59,763 nt of DNA, from positions 1-59,763 of IMG/VR virus record IMGVR_UViG_3300009370_000033; one strand, 5' to 3'. The translations under genes and the position numbers were made by a program. Positions within the stretch are counted from its first letter, which is position 1. Each line of letters starts with the position of its first letter. The notes beneath the pieces were generated by a model that was not told where the DNA came from, ran no database searches, and saw only the letters and a list, made by a program, of their open reading frames with translations. This DNA comes from a virus. Shown one piece after another: positions 3,553 through 28,522 of the stretch.

Positions 3553-3588
3553 TTGTTTTTAGTTGTTTGTTATGGTATAATAGTGTTA
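3553..3588 (+). promoter_or_regulatory. Sigma70-type promoter for the 3588 operon
   Basis: -35 TTGTTT (3553-3558), 17-bp spacer, extended -10 TGG-TATAAT (3576-3581). It shares the TTTTCC lead-in with the promoters at 23237 and 26559. With standard spacing, transcription would start at about 3588, the A of the next ATG. Confidence 0.75.
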
Positions 3589-4709
3589 TGGATAATAAAG
3601 ATATACACATTGGAATAGTTGGTGCTGGTAGAATTGGAACTGCCATCTATAGTTTATTAGTTGGTAAGAGTTCTGATTATACAATATCCATAGCGGATGT
3701 AGATTCACATCATAAACATTGGTCTATTAATGAATCACATTTTTTTGAGATAGAAACACCAGTATCATATGCAACACAATTTAATAAATTTGTTGAAGGT
3801 AAATCTCTTGTCATTAATGCATTACCATATACAGAAAATATAAATCTGTATCAGGCTTGTTTAGAATATAATGTTCCTTATTTTGATCTTTCAGAAGATG
3901 ATGCATTAGATAAGTGGATTGATGAACGTAATTATGTTTCAACAACTCGGACAGGTTTACCATTCACAATGCCTCATTGTGGATTAGCTCCGGGTATGTC
4001 AACAGTAGTAGCAAACCATCTAGCAAAGGATTTTTCCGATTTACATGATGTTAAGATACGAGTTGGTGCATTATCACAAGATGCTACGAACAAGTTAAAG
4101 TATCATGCGTCTTGGAGTGGTGATGGTTTGGTTAATGAGTACATGGGCAAGTGTCAAGTAGTTCGTAATGGATCCTATGACGAAGTAGATGCATTGTCTG
4201 GTTATGAAACATTAACGATTGATGGTGTCGATTATGAAGCATTTAATACATCTGGTGGTATTGGTTCTTATGCAAGAAGTTTATCAGAACAAAATATAGC
4301 TGGTGTTAATGCAGATTATAAAACTATTCGTAGAGTAGGACATCATCAGTATGTTGATTTTCTTTTTAATGATCTTAAACTTCCACAAGATATATTAACA
4401 AATATGTTCAAAAAGTATATTCCAAATACAAGAAAAGATGAAGTTATACTTTATGCTTCAGCTGGTGGATATACTGGTAATGAGTTTCATTATCAGACAA
4501 AAGATTATAGTATGTTGTTTCGCCCATTAACTATTTACGGGAGAAGTTATACAGCAATAGAATATACGACAGCTTGTGGTATGTTGGCTATGGTTGAGTT
4601 ATTTTTAACTGGTAAATTACCACAAGAAGGTTATGTAACACAAGAGTCAGTAGATTGGAAAGACGTTTTGAGTACAACATTCGGGAAACATTATAGAGAG
4701 GAATACTAA
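3588..4709 (+). CDS. Saccharopine dehydrogenase-like oxidoreductase
   Basis: 373 residues. An N-terminal Rossmann fold with GAGRIG at residues 12-17 is followed by the middle domain of saccharopine dehydrogenase-like enzymes, with PHCGLAPG, the DGLVNEY segment and EAFNTSGGIGSY. LYS9-type enzymes interconvert saccharopine with 2-aminoadipate semialdehyde plus glutamate. The related carboxynorspermidine dehydrogenases act in polyamine synthesis, so the substrate is not settled. I chose ATG 3588, although the frame opens at 3567, because the promoter at 3553 would put +1 on this A, giving a leaderless message. An aldehyde dehydrogenase for the next pathway step lies at 21699. It overlaps the primase gene by TAATG. 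Confidence 0.75.
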   Translation: MDNKDIHIGIVGAGRIGTAIYSLLVGKSSDYTISIADVDSHHKHWSINESHFFEIETPVSYATQFNKFVEGKSLVINALPYTENINLYQACLEYNVPYFDLSEDDALDKWIDERNYVSTTRTGLPFTMPHCGLAPGMSTVVANHLAKDFSDLHDVKIRVGALSQDATNKLKYHASWSGDGLVNEYMGKCQVVRNGSYDEVDALSGYETLTIDGVDYEAFNTSGGIGSYARSLSEQNIAGVNADYKTIRRVGHHQYVDFLFNDLKLPQDILTNMFKKYIPNTRKDEVILYASAGGYTGNEFHYQTKDYSMLFRPLTIYGRSYTAIEYTTACGMLAMVELFLTGKLPQEGYVTQESVDWKDVLSTTFGKHYREEY

Positions 4710-8874: not shown

Positions 8875-9398
8875 TGAGCAGTAAATCAAAACAAAAAGGC
8901 AAGGGATGGGAACGTGATGTATGTTTATATCTTTCTGCGTTATATAATGATTCTTTTATTAGAGTGCCAGGTTCTGGTGCGTTTATTGGTGGAACAAATC
9001 AATTTAGAAAAGATTATCTATCAGAGGAACAGATAAAGTTATCGCGTGGTGATATTATCCCACCAGTAAAGTATCCGTTCTTCTTGGCTGAGTGTAAGAA
9101 CTATGCAGAGTTTCCTTTTCATCAGTTAATATCTAAAGAACGAATTGTTCTGTTAGATTCATGGATAGAACAAGTAGAACATGATGTGACATCAGAGAAT
9201 GATTTGTGGTTATTGTTTATTAAGATAACTAGAAAAGGAGCATATGTATTATATCCAATTCGTAAACTTGATGACTTACAACATGGGGTGAGATACAGAC
9301 AATATTGGTTGTGTGATATGAATTATTTTTTTAAATGTTATAAAGATGAATTAGATTTGAGGTGGAGAGATTATGGTAGAAAAACCGAAGAAGATTAA
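8874..9398 (+). CDS. PD-(D/E)XK-type nuclease, possible Holliday junction resolvase
   Basis: 174 residues. The N-terminal GKGWERDV, the RVPGSGAFIGGTN segment, GDII and then LAECKNY match the E...GD...ExK core of Hjc-like and related archaeal/phage resolvases. Such enzymes trim branched DNA before packaging. The C-terminal half is less typical. It overlaps the GAPDH start by 26 bp. The substrate is unproven; the fold call is stronger than the resolvase call. Confidence 0.6.
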   Translation: MSSKSKQKGKGWERDVCLYLSALYNDSFIRVPGSGAFIGGTNQFRKDYLSEEQIKLSRGDIIPPVKYPFFLAECKNYAEFPFHQLISKERIVLLDSWIEQVEHDVTSENDLWLLFIKITRKGAYVLYPIRKLDDLQHGVRYRQYWLCDMNYFFKCYKDELDLRWRDYGRKTEED

Positions 9399-10407
9399 TA
9401 TAGCATTTAATGGTTTTGGTAGAATTGGTAGAAATCTGGTTCGTAAATTAATAACTGATAAACGATATAATATAGTTGCTATTAATGCAAGAACAACTGT
9501 TGATGTAAGAGCTCATTTGTTTAAGTATGATTCAGTTCATGGTAAGTATTCAGGTGATGTTACTTATGAATTGGATAATATGATTATTGATGGTCATACA
9601 ATTCCAAACTTTGATAGACGCACACCAGTAAAACTTCCTTGGGGTGAATTAGAAGTTGATTTTGTCATTGATTCAACTGGTAAGTTTACAAACAAACATG
9701 ATCTTGAACAACATATAGAAGCTGGTGCAAAGAATGTTATCGTGACATCACCTGCAAAAGATGTAGATGCTACATTAGTATTTGGTGTGAATGAAACCAG
9801 TTATAAAGTTCAAGAAACAAATATTATTTCTGCTTCATCTTGTACTACCACTTGTTTAACACCCATCCTTAAAGTTCTGTTGAAAAATTATGGTATCAAA
9901 CAAGGTACAATGACAACAGTTCATTCATTTACTATGGGACAAGCATTACTTGATTCGTCACATCCAGATTTAAGACGAGCAAGATCAGCAACCATGTCTA
10001 TTATTCCAACATCCACAGGAGCTGCAAGTAATGTTGGTGTCATCATTCCAGAATTAGAAGGTAAGTTAGATGGACTTGCACTTAGAGTTCCAGTTCCAAA
10101 TGTATCTTTGTTAGATTTGTCGATTGAGTTAGAACAAGATACGACAATGGAAGAAATTATTGAAGTGTTTGAAAAAGAGAAAAAGATGCATGGAATATTA
10201 TGTGTTTCGTATGAGCCGTTGGTATCGGTAGATTATATTGGTAATTCATGTTCGGCTATAGTTGATACTCTCTCCTCCAAAATGGTTAATAAACGATTGT
10301 TGAAATTGATTGCTTTTTATGATAATGAATATGGTTATTGCTGTCGCGTGCTAGATTTGCTTGAATATCTTGCCAAGAAATTGCCCCAACCAACCCCAAG
10401 TAAATAA
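9373..10407 (+). CDS. gap: Glyceraldehyde-3-phosphate dehydrogenase (GAPDH family)
   Basis: 344 residues and full length. GFGRIGR (14-20) starts the NAD(P) domain. The catalytic Cys157 lies in SSCTTTC (canonical ASCTTNC, so Asn is replaced by Thr) and His184 in TTVHS. GAPDH converts glyceraldehyde-3-phosphate to 1,3-bisphosphoglycerate. The usual NAD-specifying Asp after the second strand is missing: the sequence reads INAR (37-40), which could shift preference to NADP. Erythrose-4-phosphate dehydrogenase is a close alternative. It is the last gene before the hairpin and promoter region at 10410. Confidence 0.88.
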   Translation: MVEKPKKINIAFNGFGRIGRNLVRKLITDKRYNIVAINARTTVDVRAHLFKYDSVHGKYSGDVTYELDNMIIDGHTIPNFDRRTPVKLPWGELEVDFVIDSTGKFTNKHDLEQHIEAGAKNVIVTSPAKDVDATLVFGVNETSYKVQETNIISASSCTTTCLTPILKVLLKNYGIKQGTMTTVHSFTMGQALLDSSHPDLRRARSATMSIIPTSTGAASNVGVIIPELEGKLDGLALRVPVPNVSLLDLSIELEQDTTMEEIIEVFEKEKKMHGILCVSYEPLVSVDYIGNSCSAIVDTLSSKMVNKRLLKLIAFYDNEYGYCCRVLDLLEYLAKKLPQPTPSK

Positions 10408-21489: not shown

Positions 21490-21702
21490 ATGTCTGTTAT
21501 TTTAATTACTATTGGTCTTGTATTTGGTGCTTATTTGTATCAACCTATGTGGTTTGACAATGGGCCATATCATTATGTAAGTTCACATGAGTCATTAGCT
21601 GATTGTGAAAGAGCCAAAACTTCTGGCCATGATGAAACTTATGGGAAAGATTTGATTTGTGCTGATGGTGAATTGTATATGAAGAAGGAGGATGAAAAAT
21701 GA
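21490..21702 (+). CDS. Small membrane or secreted protein
   Basis: 70 residues. A hydrophobic N-terminus (about residues 2-17) may be a signal or anchor; the rest has two Cys (DCERAK and LICADG) that could pair outside the cytoplasm. AAGGAGG precedes the start. The end overlaps the ALDH start by 4 bp. Unknown function. Confidence 0.55.
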   Translation: MSVILITIGLVFGAYLYQPMWFDNGPYHYVSSHESLADCERAKTSGHDETYGKDLICADGELYMKKEDEK

Positions 21703-23198
21703 TTTATAAGAATTTTATCGGTGGTGTGTGGATGGAGTCTATTACTGGTAAGACTTTTAAATCTCATAATCCAGCACATACGGGTCAAGAAGTTGGTGAG
21801 TTTCAAGACTCAGGCCGAGTTGATATTGATCGTGCAGTTGAATTTGCAAAAGATGCTTTCAAGATGTGGAGCCATACACCTGCACCAAAACGTGCAGAGA
21901 TTCTTTTTAAAGCTGCACAGATTATGGAACGTGATAAAGAGTGTATTGCAAAGGGCATGACTCAAGAGATGGGCAAGATTCTTGCTGAAACTAGAGGAGA
22001 TGTTCAAGAAGCAATCGACATGGCATATTATGCAGCTGGTGAAGGTAGACGAATGGCTGGTGAAACAAATCCATCTGAATTAAAAGATAAGATGGTGATG
22101 ACTATTCGACAACCAATGGGAGTTATTGGTGCGATAACGCCGTGGAACTTTCCAATAGCAATACCTGCATGGAAAGCATTTCCAGCATTAGTTGCTGGTA
22201 ACACAATGGTTATTAAACCAGCAGAAGATACTCCGTGGTCAGTTATTAAATTAGCTGAAGTTTTTATTGAAGCTGGATTACCACCTGGTGTATTTAATGT
22301 TGTAACTGGTTATGGCCCGACAGCTGGATTACCACTTGTAAGAAATAAAGATGTTAAGATGTTATCGTTTACTGGTTCAACAGCAACTGGTAAAATCATT
22401 GCGACTACTTGTGCAGAACTTGGTAAACAGTATTCACTTGAGATGGGTGGTAAGAATGGCATTATTGTAGATAAAGATGCAGACCTCGACCTTGCAGTTG
22501 AAGGAGTTGCATTTGGAGCATTTGGAACTACGGGTCAAAGATGTACTGCTTGTTCCAGAGTGTTTATCCACGAAGATGTTAAAGAAGAATTTACAGAGAA
22601 GCTAGTAGCAAAAGCACAATCGTTATTTCTTGGTGATGGACTAGATGAAACAGTCCACATGGGACCCTTGATAAATGAGAAAGCTGTACGCAAAGTAGAT
22701 AAGTATGTTAGAGATGCAAAAGATCGTTTTGCTTTTGAAGGTGGTGGCAAGTTACTTTGTGGTGGCAATTTTATAACTGAACCAACTGATACGACTTATG
22801 GTTGGTTTTTTGAACCTACAATTTTTGATGATGTAGATGTTAATGATCCACTTATGCAAGAAGAAATCTTTGGGCCAGTAGTTGCCTTAACTACTTTTAA
22901 TAATCCCATTGAAGCACTTTGGCAAATCAATAATACTGCTTATGGTTTAAGTGCAGCTCTTTATACTAGTGATGTCAATTTTGCCATGATGGCATTTAAG
23001 CATATCGAAACTGGATTGGTTTATGTTAACGCCTCCTGTATTGGTGCAGAGGTGCATCTCCCCTTTGGAGGACTAAAAGGAACAGGAAATGGACATAGAG
23101 ATGCTGGTCAAACCATGCTTGATAACTGTACTGAATGGAAGGTCTGCTCTATAGACTTCTCAGGGCGTATCCAAAAGGCACAAATAGACAACGAATAA
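21699..23198 (+). CDS. NAD-type aldehyde dehydrogenase, semialdehyde class
   Basis: 499 residues and full length. Catalytic Cys282 (GQRCTAC), general base Glu248 (LEMGGKN), oxyanion Asn150 (PWNFP) and the cofactor residues Lys173/Glu176 (KPAE) are present; Glu176 favours NAD. The C-terminal signature GAEVHLPFGG followed by GNGHRDAG resembles bacterial 2-oxoglutarate-semialdehyde and 2-aminoadipate-semialdehyde dehydrogenases. A saccharopine dehydrogenase-like enzyme at 3588 could make 2-aminoadipate semialdehyde, so this may be the next step. The exact substrate cannot be settled by eye. The operon ends here, before the hairpin at 23196. Confidence 0.88.
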   Translation: MIYKNFIGGVWMESITGKTFKSHNPAHTGQEVGEFQDSGRVDIDRAVEFAKDAFKMWSHTPAPKRAEILFKAAQIMERDKECIAKGMTQEMGKILAETRGDVQEAIDMAYYAAGEGRRMAGETNPSELKDKMVMTIRQPMGVIGAITPWNFPIAIPAWKAFPALVAGNTMVIKPAEDTPWSVIKLAEVFIEAGLPPGVFNVVTGYGPTAGLPLVRNKDVKMLSFTGSTATGKIIATTCAELGKQYSLEMGGKNGIIVDKDADLDLAVEGVAFGAFGTTGQRCTACSRVFIHEDVKEEFTEKLVAKAQSLFLGDGLDETVHMGPLINEKAVRKVDKYVRDAKDRFAFEGGGKLLCGGNFITEPTDTTYGWFFEPTIFDDVDVNDPLMQEEIFGPVVALTTFNNPIEALWQINNTAYGLSAALYTSDVNFAMMAFKHIETGLVYVNASCIGAEVHLPFGGLKGTGNGHRDAGQTMLDNCTEWKVCSIDFSGRIQKAQIDNE

Positions 23199-25716: not shown

Positions 25717-25767
25717 GAGGTAATTATGTTCCCTATTTTTGGTTTGTCAAATTCAAAAGGAGAGCCT

Positions 25768-26292
25768 ATGTTAATTGGTATTTCTGGTAAAGCTGGTGCT
25801 GGTAAAGACACACTTGGTAAATACTTGTGTGACGAATATCGTTGTTTGCATTATTATTTTGCAAAGCCTCTTAAAGAGGGAGCAAAAGTTATGTTTGCAT
25901 TGACTGATAACCAGATTGCAAACAAAGAAGTGCCTATTGAACCTTGGGGTATTTCACCAAGAAAGATTTGGCAGTTACTTGGTACTGAAGTAGGTCGTGG
26001 TATTGATCCTGCAATTTGGATTAAGAACGCAGAGATGTTTATTAAGAAACATCCTGGCCGTACAGTTGTAATTACTGATGTACGATTTGACAATGAAGCT
26101 ACTTTCATTCGCAATAGAGGGGGAGTTGTTATAAATATAGAAAGAGATAGTAAAGATATTTATGAGAATAGACATTCAAGTGAGGGTGGTTTGAGTGAAG
26201 ATAATATTGACTTGACTATCAAGAATAATGGTAGTATTGAGGATATGTGTAATGAAGTTACATATATGATTCAGAAAGGAATTGCTGTATAA
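25768..26292 (+). CDS. 1: Deoxynucleoside monophosphate kinase (T4 gp1-like)
   Basis: 174 residues. The P-loop GKAGAGKDT lies at residues 7-15, followed by the LLGTEVGR and DVRFDNEA segments typical of phage dNMP kinases. It phosphorylates dNMPs released from host DNA. I chose ATG 25768 because AAGGAGA is well placed; ATG 25726 in the same frame is an alternative with AGAGG. The stop region overlaps the predicted acceptor piece of the tmRNA. Confidence 0.8.
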   Translation: MLIGISGKAGAGKDTLGKYLCDEYRCLHYYFAKPLKEGAKVMFALTDNQIANKEVPIEPWGISPRKIWQLLGTEVGRGIDPAIWIKNAEMFIKKHPGRTVVITDVRFDNEATFIRNRGGVVINIERDSKDIYENRHSSEGGLSEDNIDLTIKNNGSIEDMCNEVTYMIQKGIAV

Positions 26293-26550
26293 TCTTAGAG
26301 TGAAAGTTTTTTTGGACACGGGTGCAATTCCCGTCGCCTCCACCAATTTTTATAAGACGAAGTAAAGGGCAGTCATAGACAGGGGGGTGAACTAGTTTCG
26401 ACAGGAGAATGGAAACTATAAGACAGCACGGAGAAGAATGATGGCTCCGTTATCAATCATTCAAACTATAAACGCTAACGATTACGACTTAGCGCTTGCT
26501 GCTTAATTAAGTAGCGGAGTCCGAGGGTACTTGTCAACAGAAACCCTCAC
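26285..26550 (+). ncRNA. ssrA: Circularly permuted (two-piece) tmRNA
   Basis: The acceptor piece comes first (about 26285-26345): a T arm, ACGGGTGCAATTCCCGT, then CGCCTCC-ACCA with encoded CCA ending at 26345. A 37-nt spacer follows. The coding piece starts GGGGGUG at 26383-26389, which pairs over 7 bp (one G-U pair inside and one at the end) with CGCCUCC, and continues into the conserved GTTTCGACAGG. The tag frame at 26474-26506 reads ANDYDLALAA-stop. ACAG (26423-26426) and AAGA can pair with CUGU (26285-26288) and UCUU as helix P2. A GAGGGT/ACCCTC stem (26523-26548) with T5 ends the gene. Permuted order and the LALAA end are typical of alphaproteobacterial tmRNA. Confidence 0.92.
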
Positions 26551-26558
26551 CTTTTTCC

Positions 26559-26594
26559 TTGTATTCTAATTCTCGTTATGTTATAATGAGATGT
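26559..26594 (+). promoter_or_regulatory. Sigma70-type promoter after the tmRNA
   Basis: -35 TTGTAT (26559-26564), 17-bp spacer, extended -10 TGT-TATAAT (26582-26587). The TTTTTCC lead-in doubles as the T tract of the tmRNA terminator stem. The start point is predicted at about 26594. Confidence 0.8.
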
Positions 26595-26597
26595 TGT

Positions 26598-26648
26598 TAT
26601 GGTGAATGAGTGATGGTTATCGGGTTCAATGCCCGACCGTTCATCATG
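26598..26648 (+). promoter_or_regulatory. Structured leader with T-arm-like hairpin
   Basis: A perfect T-arm mimic, TCGGG-TTCAATG-CCCGA (26619-26635), is enclosed by a 10-bp helix formed by ATGGTGAATG (about 26599-26608) and CGTTCATCAT (about 26637-26646), allowing G-U pairs. The D arm and anticodon arm of a tRNA are absent. It begins about 5 nt after the predicted transcript start and ends 19 nt before the ribosome site of the 26678 gene. Confidence 0.5.
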
Positions 26649-26677
26649 TTTTTGTAAATCCTTTTAAGGAGATGTGT

Positions 26678-26893
26678 ATGGGTATGACTACGAAACACGG
26701 CCAGCCTCGAACTGGCCGAAAGTATGCTCGCAAGATGACTCGAGCTGAGTGCGAGCTAACAGATTTGCCACGATGGGTTCAGATTTATACGAGCCCTGCT
26801 ACTGGACAAGTTGCGTTTAAGAACGCAGACATTGTTGGTGGCGCAAAGACTGTTAACTCTATCCGAAAGAAACTGAATAAGTTTTGGGGATAG
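26678..26893 (+). CDS. Small basic protein, unknown function
   Basis: 71 residues, strongly basic in the first third (KHGQPRTGRKYARK) and at the end (IRKKLNKFW). I chose ATG 26678 because AAGGAG (26666-26671) is 6 bp upstream. Codon use is richer in G and C than in the neighbouring genes. A 7-bp hairpin, CGGCCAG with CTGGCCG, covers 26698-26718, early in the gene. It has its own promoter, structured leader and strong terminator, so it is a single-gene unit. RNA binding is an inference from charge; it is too short to be SmpB. Confidence 0.6.
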   Translation: MGMTTKHGQPRTGRKYARKMTRAECELTDLPRWVQIYTSPATGQVAFKNADIVGGAKTVNSIRKKLNKFWG

Positions 26894-27395: not shown

Positions 27396-27935
27396 ATGAA
27401 GAAGTTAATTTTATTATGTTTAGTTTTGGTTGCTTGTAGTGCCTTTAAGAGGGTAACTTATGTACCAGCATCTTATGATTATCAAGATGAAGTTAAGTGT
27501 CTGGCTCAAAACATTTATTTTGAAGCTAGAGATCAAACGATTAAAGGTCAAATTGCAGTCGCACTTGTTACGATAAATCGTGTAGAAAGTAAAAGGTTTC
27601 CTAATAGTATATGTAAAGTTATTCATCAAGCAAGACGATATAGTAATGGTAAGATAAAAAAACATAAGTGTCAGTTTTCTTGGTATTGTGATGGACTATC
27701 AGATACACCAAGAGATCGAATAGCATGGAAAGTATCAAAGACTATTGCAAGAGCTATGTTAAAACAGCCAGGTGCTAGTATTAAACACTTTGGAAAGAAG
27801 TGGGACATGGAAGATTTTCTTAATGGTGCAAAATATTATCATCGGATAGATGTTAATCCATATTGGAATAGCAAGATGATTAAAGTGTTGCAACTTGGCG
27901 ATCATATTTTTTGGAAAGATTACTTAAACGAGTGA
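27396..27935 (+). CDS. SleB-type cell wall hydrolase, exported
   Basis: 179 residues. A signal peptide ends near LVACS (possible lipobox, Cys14). The Hydrolase_2/SleB core follows: CLAQNIYFEARDQ with catalytic Glu43, GQIAVALVTINRV, RFPNSICKVI and CQFSWYCDG. SleB enzymes are lytic transglycosylases or amidase-like hydrolases that cut peptidoglycan. Two tiny membrane proteins precede it, so this may be a lysis or entry cassette. Confidence 0.75.
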   Translation: MKKLILLCLVLVACSAFKRVTYVPASYDYQDEVKCLAQNIYFEARDQTIKGQIAVALVTINRVESKRFPNSICKVIHQARRYSNGKIKKHKCQFSWYCDGLSDTPRDRIAWKVSKTIARAMLKQPGASIKHFGKKWDMEDFLNGAKYYHRIDVNPYWNSKMIKVLQLGDHIFWKDYLNE

Positions 27936-27964
27936 CGGAATTTCAAACAGGGAGTAAAGTTGAG

Positions 27965-28522
27965 ATGGCAAAAGAGAAAAAAGTAGACGCCCAGCCGTCA
28001 GTCGAAGAATGTGGCATATATCTTCTGATGGATGAGATATCAGACAGTACTTGTAAAGATGCAATATCATTTATTATATCAAAGAATTTAACAAAACCAT
28101 ATCCAAAGTATTTACAGTTAGTACTTAATTCTGGAGGTGGTGATTTACAAGCAGCTTTTGCACTTATAGATACAATGAAAGGGAGTGCAATTCCAGTTCG
28201 TACAGTTGGACTTGGTTGTGTAGCATCAGCTGCAGTATTGATTTTTATATCTGGTGAGAAAGGACATAGAGTATTGACCCCGAATACTTCTATACTATCA
28301 CATCAGTTTTCATGGGGGACTTATGGTAAAGAACATGAGTTGTTTGCAACAGTTAGAGAATATGAATTAACTACTAAACGAATGATAAATCATTATAAAA
28401 AATGTACTGGTTTGAATGAAAAGAAAATTAGAGAATTTTTATTACCAGCACAAGATGTTTGGTTAGAAGCAAGAGAAGCAAAGAAACTTGGTTTATGTGA
28501 TAGTGTTAAAACAGTTTACTAG
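27965..28522 (+). CDS. clpP: ClpP-like serine protease
   Basis: 185 residues. Ser88 (VASAAV), His113 (LSHQFSWG) and Asp164 (PAQDVWLEAREAKKLGL) align with the ClpP triad, and NSGGGDLQAA matches the family's oxyanion-loop glycine motif. I chose ATG 27965 with AGGGAG upstream; the frame itself opens at 27911 inside the hydrolase. ClpP chambers work with ClpX or ClpA. No unfoldase is seen here, so host ClpX would be needed. A prohead protease role is an alternative, but no head genes are adjacent. Confidence 0.8.
   Translation: MAKEKKVDAQPSVEECGIYLLMDEISDSTCKDAISFIISKNLTKPYPKYLQLVLNSGGGDLQAAFALIDTMKGSAIPVRTVGLGCVASAAVLIFISGEKGHRVLTPNTSILSHQFSWGTYGKEHELFATVREYELTTKRMINHYKKCTGLNEKKIREFLLPAQDVWLEAREAKKLGLCDSVKTVY

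Follow-up and report, generated by a model that had tools for sequence, protein, structure and literature searches.

A circularly permuted two-piece tmRNA gene in a contig of a marine T4-like phage and its probable role in trans-translation

Identification of the permuted tmRNA gene

The window, i.e. the whole stretch of DNA analysed here, is a 59,763-base virus record from IMG/VR and is a contig of a marine T4-like phage. Baseplate and gp32 genes were found by search, and ribonucleotide reductase-like and ThyX-like genes were recognized in our own reading of the translations. The window also carries metabolic genes, namely a saccharopine-dehydrogenase-like gene (3567-4709), a GAPDH gene (9373-10407) and an aldehyde dehydrogenase gene (21699-23198). 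No nucleotide relatives of 24 kb of the window were found among isolated phages.

When ARAGORN was run on the whole window, the sole RNA gene reported was a permuted tmRNA (tmRNA*) on the plus strand at 26253-26597, with the tag ANDYDLALAA. The Rfam model RF04321 (tmRNA_permuted) matches 26283-26506 over model positions 1-213 of 213, with 128.3 bits and an E-value of 8.6e-25 (gathering cut-off 47 bits), and RF01849 (alpha_tmRNA) matches 26233-26551 with 107.9 bits and an E-value of 1.6e-28 (cut-off 50 bits). An earlier note on this DNA, made from its letters, had claimed that the phage encodes a circularly permuted two-piece tmRNA with a complete tag and had proposed the alphaproteobacterial covariance model as a check; ARAGORN and Rfam agree on such a gene at about 26283-26551, and that model matches it. 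The 3′ end given by ARAGORN (26597) is probably too long, since the alpha model and the 3′ hairpin both stop at 26551. Among the subtype models, RF01849 scores above its cut-off and above both the beta and the cyanobacterial model: RF01850 (beta_tmRNA) gives 92.4 bits, which is above its cut-off of 84, and the cyanobacterial subtype was rejected because RF01851 (cyano_tmRNA) reaches 38.9 bits against a cut-off of 70. The folding energy of the RNA is only weakly better than that of shuffled sequences (z -1.57), which is not surprising because the RNA has pseudoknots and an unpaired mRNA part. Judged from its sequence, the gene is intact and looks functional.

Architecture of the two pieces and the kinase overlap

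The acceptor piece was modelled as running from about 26283 to 26345 on the plus strand, on the basis of the RF04321 and RF01849 alignments, the sequence itself and an alignment of 14 phage acceptor pieces. It carries the P2 5′ strand UGCUG (26283-26287), which pairs with CAGCA at 26424-26428, and contains a T stem-loop (26318-26334) with the loop UGCAAUU, followed, as read from the sequence, by the acceptor 3′ strand CGCCTCC (26335-26341), the discriminator A (26342) and an encoded CCA (26343-26345). A 37-nt spacer (26346-26382, plus strand), for which excision from the precursor is predicted, separates it from the coding piece, and an extra G (26382) precedes the mature 5′ G. The coding piece (26383 to about 26551, plus strand), delimited from Rfam alignments, sequence and folding, consists of the acceptor 5′ strand GGGGGTG (26383-26389), then GUUUCGACAGG, the P2 3′ strand and the tag reading frame, and ends with the hairpin GAGGGU..ACCCUC. 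The tag frame found by ARAGORN runs on the plus strand from the resume codon GCT to the stop codon TAA (26474-26506) and encodes ANDYDLALAA. The reading in the earlier note is thus borne out for the acceptor piece with its CCA upstream of the coding piece, the 7-bp acceptor stem between the pieces, the conserved start GTTTCGACAGG and the complete tag; the processing points that it named, 26345 and 26383, are the right positions by sequence, being the CCA end and the acceptor 5′ start.

All seven pairs of the acceptor stem form, including the two wobbles G3.U70 and U6.G67. A G.U wobble at the third acceptor pair is what AlaRS reads as alanine identity. The T loop, UGCAAUU, differs from UUCRANU in having a G where the second U is usual; a G at this place is also found in the GGCAGUA loops of some relatives and in the alpha consensus, and the T loops of alphaproteobacterial tmRNAs depart from UUCRANU at the same place.

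The dNMP kinase gene (PHROG 139, Pfam DNMK; 25726-26292, plus strand) ends within the acceptor piece as modelled (stop codon 26290-26292). The overlap of the acceptor piece with the kinase end, which had been pointed out earlier, is real, but it amounts to just 10 nt (26283-26292), wholly within the P2 region UGCUGUAUAA. The distance from kinase to tmRNA among relatives ranges from a similar overlap up to more than 500 nt, and because of this variation the overlap is not a conserved design.

Directly 3′ of the tmRNA, the hexamers TTGTAT and TATAAT, separated by 17 nt (26559-26587), are conserved in relatives. By sequence they resemble a sigma-70 promoter that would serve the following gene (71 aa, 26678-26893), and the automatic scan did not list this element. 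A hairpin at 26598-26656 has a T-arm-like top (CGGGTTCAATGCCCG) and is followed by a T run; in relatives the top is different, or a tRNA-Gly occupies this place. The T-arm-like part (26603-26645) was considered as a tRNA relic and rejected, since aligning the region with relatives points to a hairpin of variable form that precedes the T run.

Comparison with known tmRNAs

The earlier note regarded a permuted tmRNA as unusual in a T4-like phage. This view cannot be upheld, since HTVC008M and Melnitz (both Kyanoviridae) and BUCT-ZZ01 carry one. The two-piece tmRNA of Melnitz was described by Buchholz et al. 2022 (PMC9004378). Of the 133 phage tmRNA structures in their count, 53 were two-piece, and 50 of these came from samples of marine or aquatic origin; within the Melnitz cluster, they found a permuted tmRNA in 17 of 47 contigs. 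Our search confirmed the gene in Melnitz (113.4 bits, with the alpha model matched in Rfam) and gave 111.9 bits for BUCT-ZZ01 and 90.6 bits for HTVC008M, where it lies at 145161-145370 of KC465899 (contig L070 in our set) and is unannotated in the GenBank record.

Melnitz EXVC044M (MZ577097) resembles the window in being a T4-like marine myophage with a permuted gene, an alpha-type covariance match and G3.U70 in its acceptor stem (GGGGGCG/CGCCUCC), and SmpB was found in neither. It differs in its tag ANDNYVPVDYALAA, its spacer of 142 nt, the lack of a ClpP relative, and the surroundings of the tmRNA, which has a glutamine riboswitch directly on its 3′ side and precedes a late-transcription coactivator gene; no Rfam match to such a riboswitch was found in the window. 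HTVC008M, also T4-like, shares with the window the permuted order, a 7-bp acceptor stem with G3.U70, a T loop (UGCAAUA) close to UGCAAUU and an overlap with the end of the upstream ORF, in its case of 21 nt; its tag (ANFNEYALAA), 49-nt spacer and neighbours are different, and it has no ClpP relative.

The permuted tmRNAs of Alphaproteobacteria (RF01849, e.g. Caulobacter) have the same piece order, P2 pairing, a non-standard T loop and the CAACAGAAACC 3′ region of the coding piece, whereas the window gene is phage-borne, encodes the 10-residue tag ANDYDLALAA and scores only moderately higher with the alpha than with the beta model. To our knowledge, the tmRNAs of Bxz1, Wildcat and Bacillus phage G are one-piece and not permuted. 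These genes of mycobacteriophages Bxz1 and Wildcat and of Bacillus phage G (listed in PMC4131195) resemble the window gene in being phage-borne and having a tag.

Host assignment

It had been claimed that the tmRNA marks an alphaproteobacterial host. Such an assignment is unsafe: Melnitz, with an alpha-type tmRNA, infects OM43, on which it was isolated (PMC9004378), and the relatives are split by model. Twelve relatives were scanned with the tmRNA models; the beta model was best in six and the alpha model in four, and the stretches of the other two had no tmRNA. The subtype is therefore inconsistent among close relatives and fails as a host indicator, and both kinds of T loop are present in the window's lineage. 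The window leans towards alpha (107.9 versus 92.4 bits), but this is weak evidence and the score does not fix the host. Tag identity was rejected as a guide as well: the sole bacterial genome found with ANDYDLALAA is a Clostridia MAG, and since its tmRNA is one-piece, the shared tag is convergent and carries no information on the host. The aldehyde dehydrogenase proved uninformative, its best plasmid-borne relatives being 41-44% identical and spread over many phyla.

A ClpP-like protease near the tmRNA

Related tmRNA genes are present in dozens of contigs from marine phages. Permuted tmRNAs were found in 29 of 34 contigs fetched solely via similarity of the neighbouring kinase and in 21 viral stretches fetched via the tag pattern, the two sets overlapping. 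Downstream of the window tmRNA lies a gene for a ClpP-like serine protease (27911-28522, plus strand; Pfam CLP_protease, 2.4e-29), with a probable start at ATG 27965 and the S/H/D triad kept; its closest isolate-phage matches are in BUCT-ZZ01 (54%) and Sinorhizobium phage Phosso (50%). In 63 of 75 tmRNA loci a ClpP gene follows on the same strand at a distance of 0.4-1.9 kb, although these loci overlap and belong mostly to one lineage, so that the 63 are not independent events, and Ser, His and Asp align in every copy covering these residues. Starting from ClpP, a tmRNA is present in 40 of 80 loci (41 of 81 when L180, a tmRNA-only locus, is counted), some of them in lineages with other neighbours and tags.

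From this gene content, ClpP is a possible functional partner of the tag. The phage might run its own tagging and degradation route, in which the phage would supply both the tag and ClpP, and host ClpX together with this ClpP would break down the tagged fragments, of host or phage origin, for amino-acid recycling or regulation, a reading that we consider possible but doubtful. The frequency of a triad-bearing ClpP downstream speaks for it, as does the recurrence of the pairing with other neighbours and with the tags ANDAQFALAA, ANDELFALAA, ANDSVYALAA and ANDEVYALAA. A tmRNA of any kind was reported in just 2.3% of phages (PMC9004378). BUCT-ZZ01 carries both genes, 41 kb apart, and for the Sinorhizobium jumbo phage AP-J-162 both a tmRNA and Clp genes have been reported (PMC11242549). 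On the other hand, many ClpP-bearing contigs have no detected tmRNA, HTVC008M and Melnitz have the tmRNA without such a ClpP, and the linkage is explicable by shared ancestry of the gene block without any function. Our literature search found no paper linking phage tmRNA functionally with phage ClpP.

A conserved RNA element in the spacers of relatives

The spacers of relatives are of several unrelated types and range from 11 to 142 nt. An element of about 59-75 nt, UAUUUAGAUGCNGACUA...GAAGGAUCNGCGACUCCUCAAGUUAACAAUAU, is conserved in 21 contigs between the CCA and the acceptor 5′ strand (L015:3609-3682, and also in L010, L021, L039, L042, L044, L052, L078, L079 and others) and is absent from the window. 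A pseudoknot model with the helices GCNGA/UCNGC, UAAC/GUUA and AGGA/UCCU, built on eleven related sequences from which the structure itself was derived, has 99.3% of its cells paired. U-A, G-C and A-U all occur as the middle pair of its first helix, and the covariation score is 0.187, versus 0.098 in shuffles and below 0.04 when the model is slid. The sequence evidence for a conserved pseudoknotted RNA here is good but not final.

Identity with a known riboswitch or ribozyme was rejected, as Rfam gave no match, even at E 10 in L015, and blastn with the element matched no isolated phage record. A looser pattern gave extra matches, one of which (L091) lies within a tmRNA; given the pattern length, we judge them to be mostly chance. 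Copies of the element have so far been found only between tmRNA pieces. The element behaves as a module, because the close relatives L012 and L016 differ by its presence. It is conceivable, if rather unlikely, that an aquatic T4-like lineage carries the permuted tmRNA and ClpP as a rescue and degradation set, to which part of the lineage, the window not included, has added a new spacer pseudoknot (about 60-75 nt) that would help in precursor cutting, sense a signal or be released as a small RNA.

Selection on the gene and its proposed role

Across 29 distinct genes whose arms could be parsed cleanly, acceptor pairs 2, 4, 5 and 6 vary while every pair is kept, with stems such as GGGGGCG/CGCCUCC, GGGGACG/CGUCUCC, GGGAGUG/CACUUCC and GUGGGAG/CUCCUAC; T-stem pairs 1 and 2 also vary with pairing kept throughout, and G3.U70 is identical in 29 of 29. 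By a looser parse 35 of 36 genes agree, and the exception (L083) is a mis-parse that the stricter parse reads correctly. The compensatory stem changes together with the constant G3.U70 therefore place the tmRNA gene under selection. The tag frame is open in all phage genes seen; its approximately 21 tag variants all end in A[LIM]AA, and the amino-acid changes fall mostly at middle positions. The tmRNA is nevertheless dispensable to the phage, since at least two close contigs (L124 and L126) have none detectable; both keep the kinase and ClpP.

A search for SmpB, positive in 10 of 14 control genomes, found none in the window, in six related contigs (fragments) or in three isolate phages. Host SmpB is the likely partner because none was found in the phage contigs. 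We propose that the gene is an intact two-piece tmRNA of the proteobacterial permuted type that very probably serves in ordinary trans-translation with host SmpB, and we infer its expression, processing, charging, tagging and benefit as follows. It would be transcribed, probably with the kinase operon, as a precursor in the order acceptor piece, spacer and coding piece; host tRNA-processing enzymes would cleave at 26345/26346 and 26382/26383, the 37-nt spacer would be discarded, and the acceptor stem and P2 would hold the two pieces together. Host AlaRS would charge the RNA via G3.U70, and host SmpB, for which the contig has no gene, would deliver it to ribosomes stalled on broken mRNA. The sequence (A)ANDYDLALAA would then be added, with an ALAA end of the ClpXP-degradation type. 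The benefit would probably be that ribosomes are kept free and incomplete proteins cleared while host mRNA is being destroyed, and the phage ClpP may assist in this clearing.

Could the RNA instead be a decoy, which titrates SmpB or competes with the host tmRNA and thereby lowers host quality control? According to PMC4131195, which cites Mao et al. 2009, tmRNA is inhibited by a form with only the tRNA domain, such as that of phage DS6A, perhaps through titration of SmpB. A decoy would not need an open tag frame with a degradation-type end, which is kept in all phage genes seen, and this reading is very improbable. That the gene is a captured host relic without a role is scarcely credible, for although mobile elements commonly integrate at ssrA and fragments of host ssrA genes occur in prophages (PMC9004378), a relic would have decayed, whereas here distinct phage genes show compensatory stem changes, a fixed G3.U70 and an open tag frame at a position conserved across divergent contigs.

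Phage two-piece tmRNAs were already published in 2022; the window gene, with ordinary trans-translation as its most probable role, is a well-supported addition that extends their range to an uncultured T4-like lineage. As the natural set of variants shows, the tRNA-like and tag functions are maintained by selection in phages. With ClpP as a recurring neighbour, a phage-run tag-and-degrade route becomes testable, and the spacer RNA of the relatives would represent a new type of element, located in a segment that is usually discarded.
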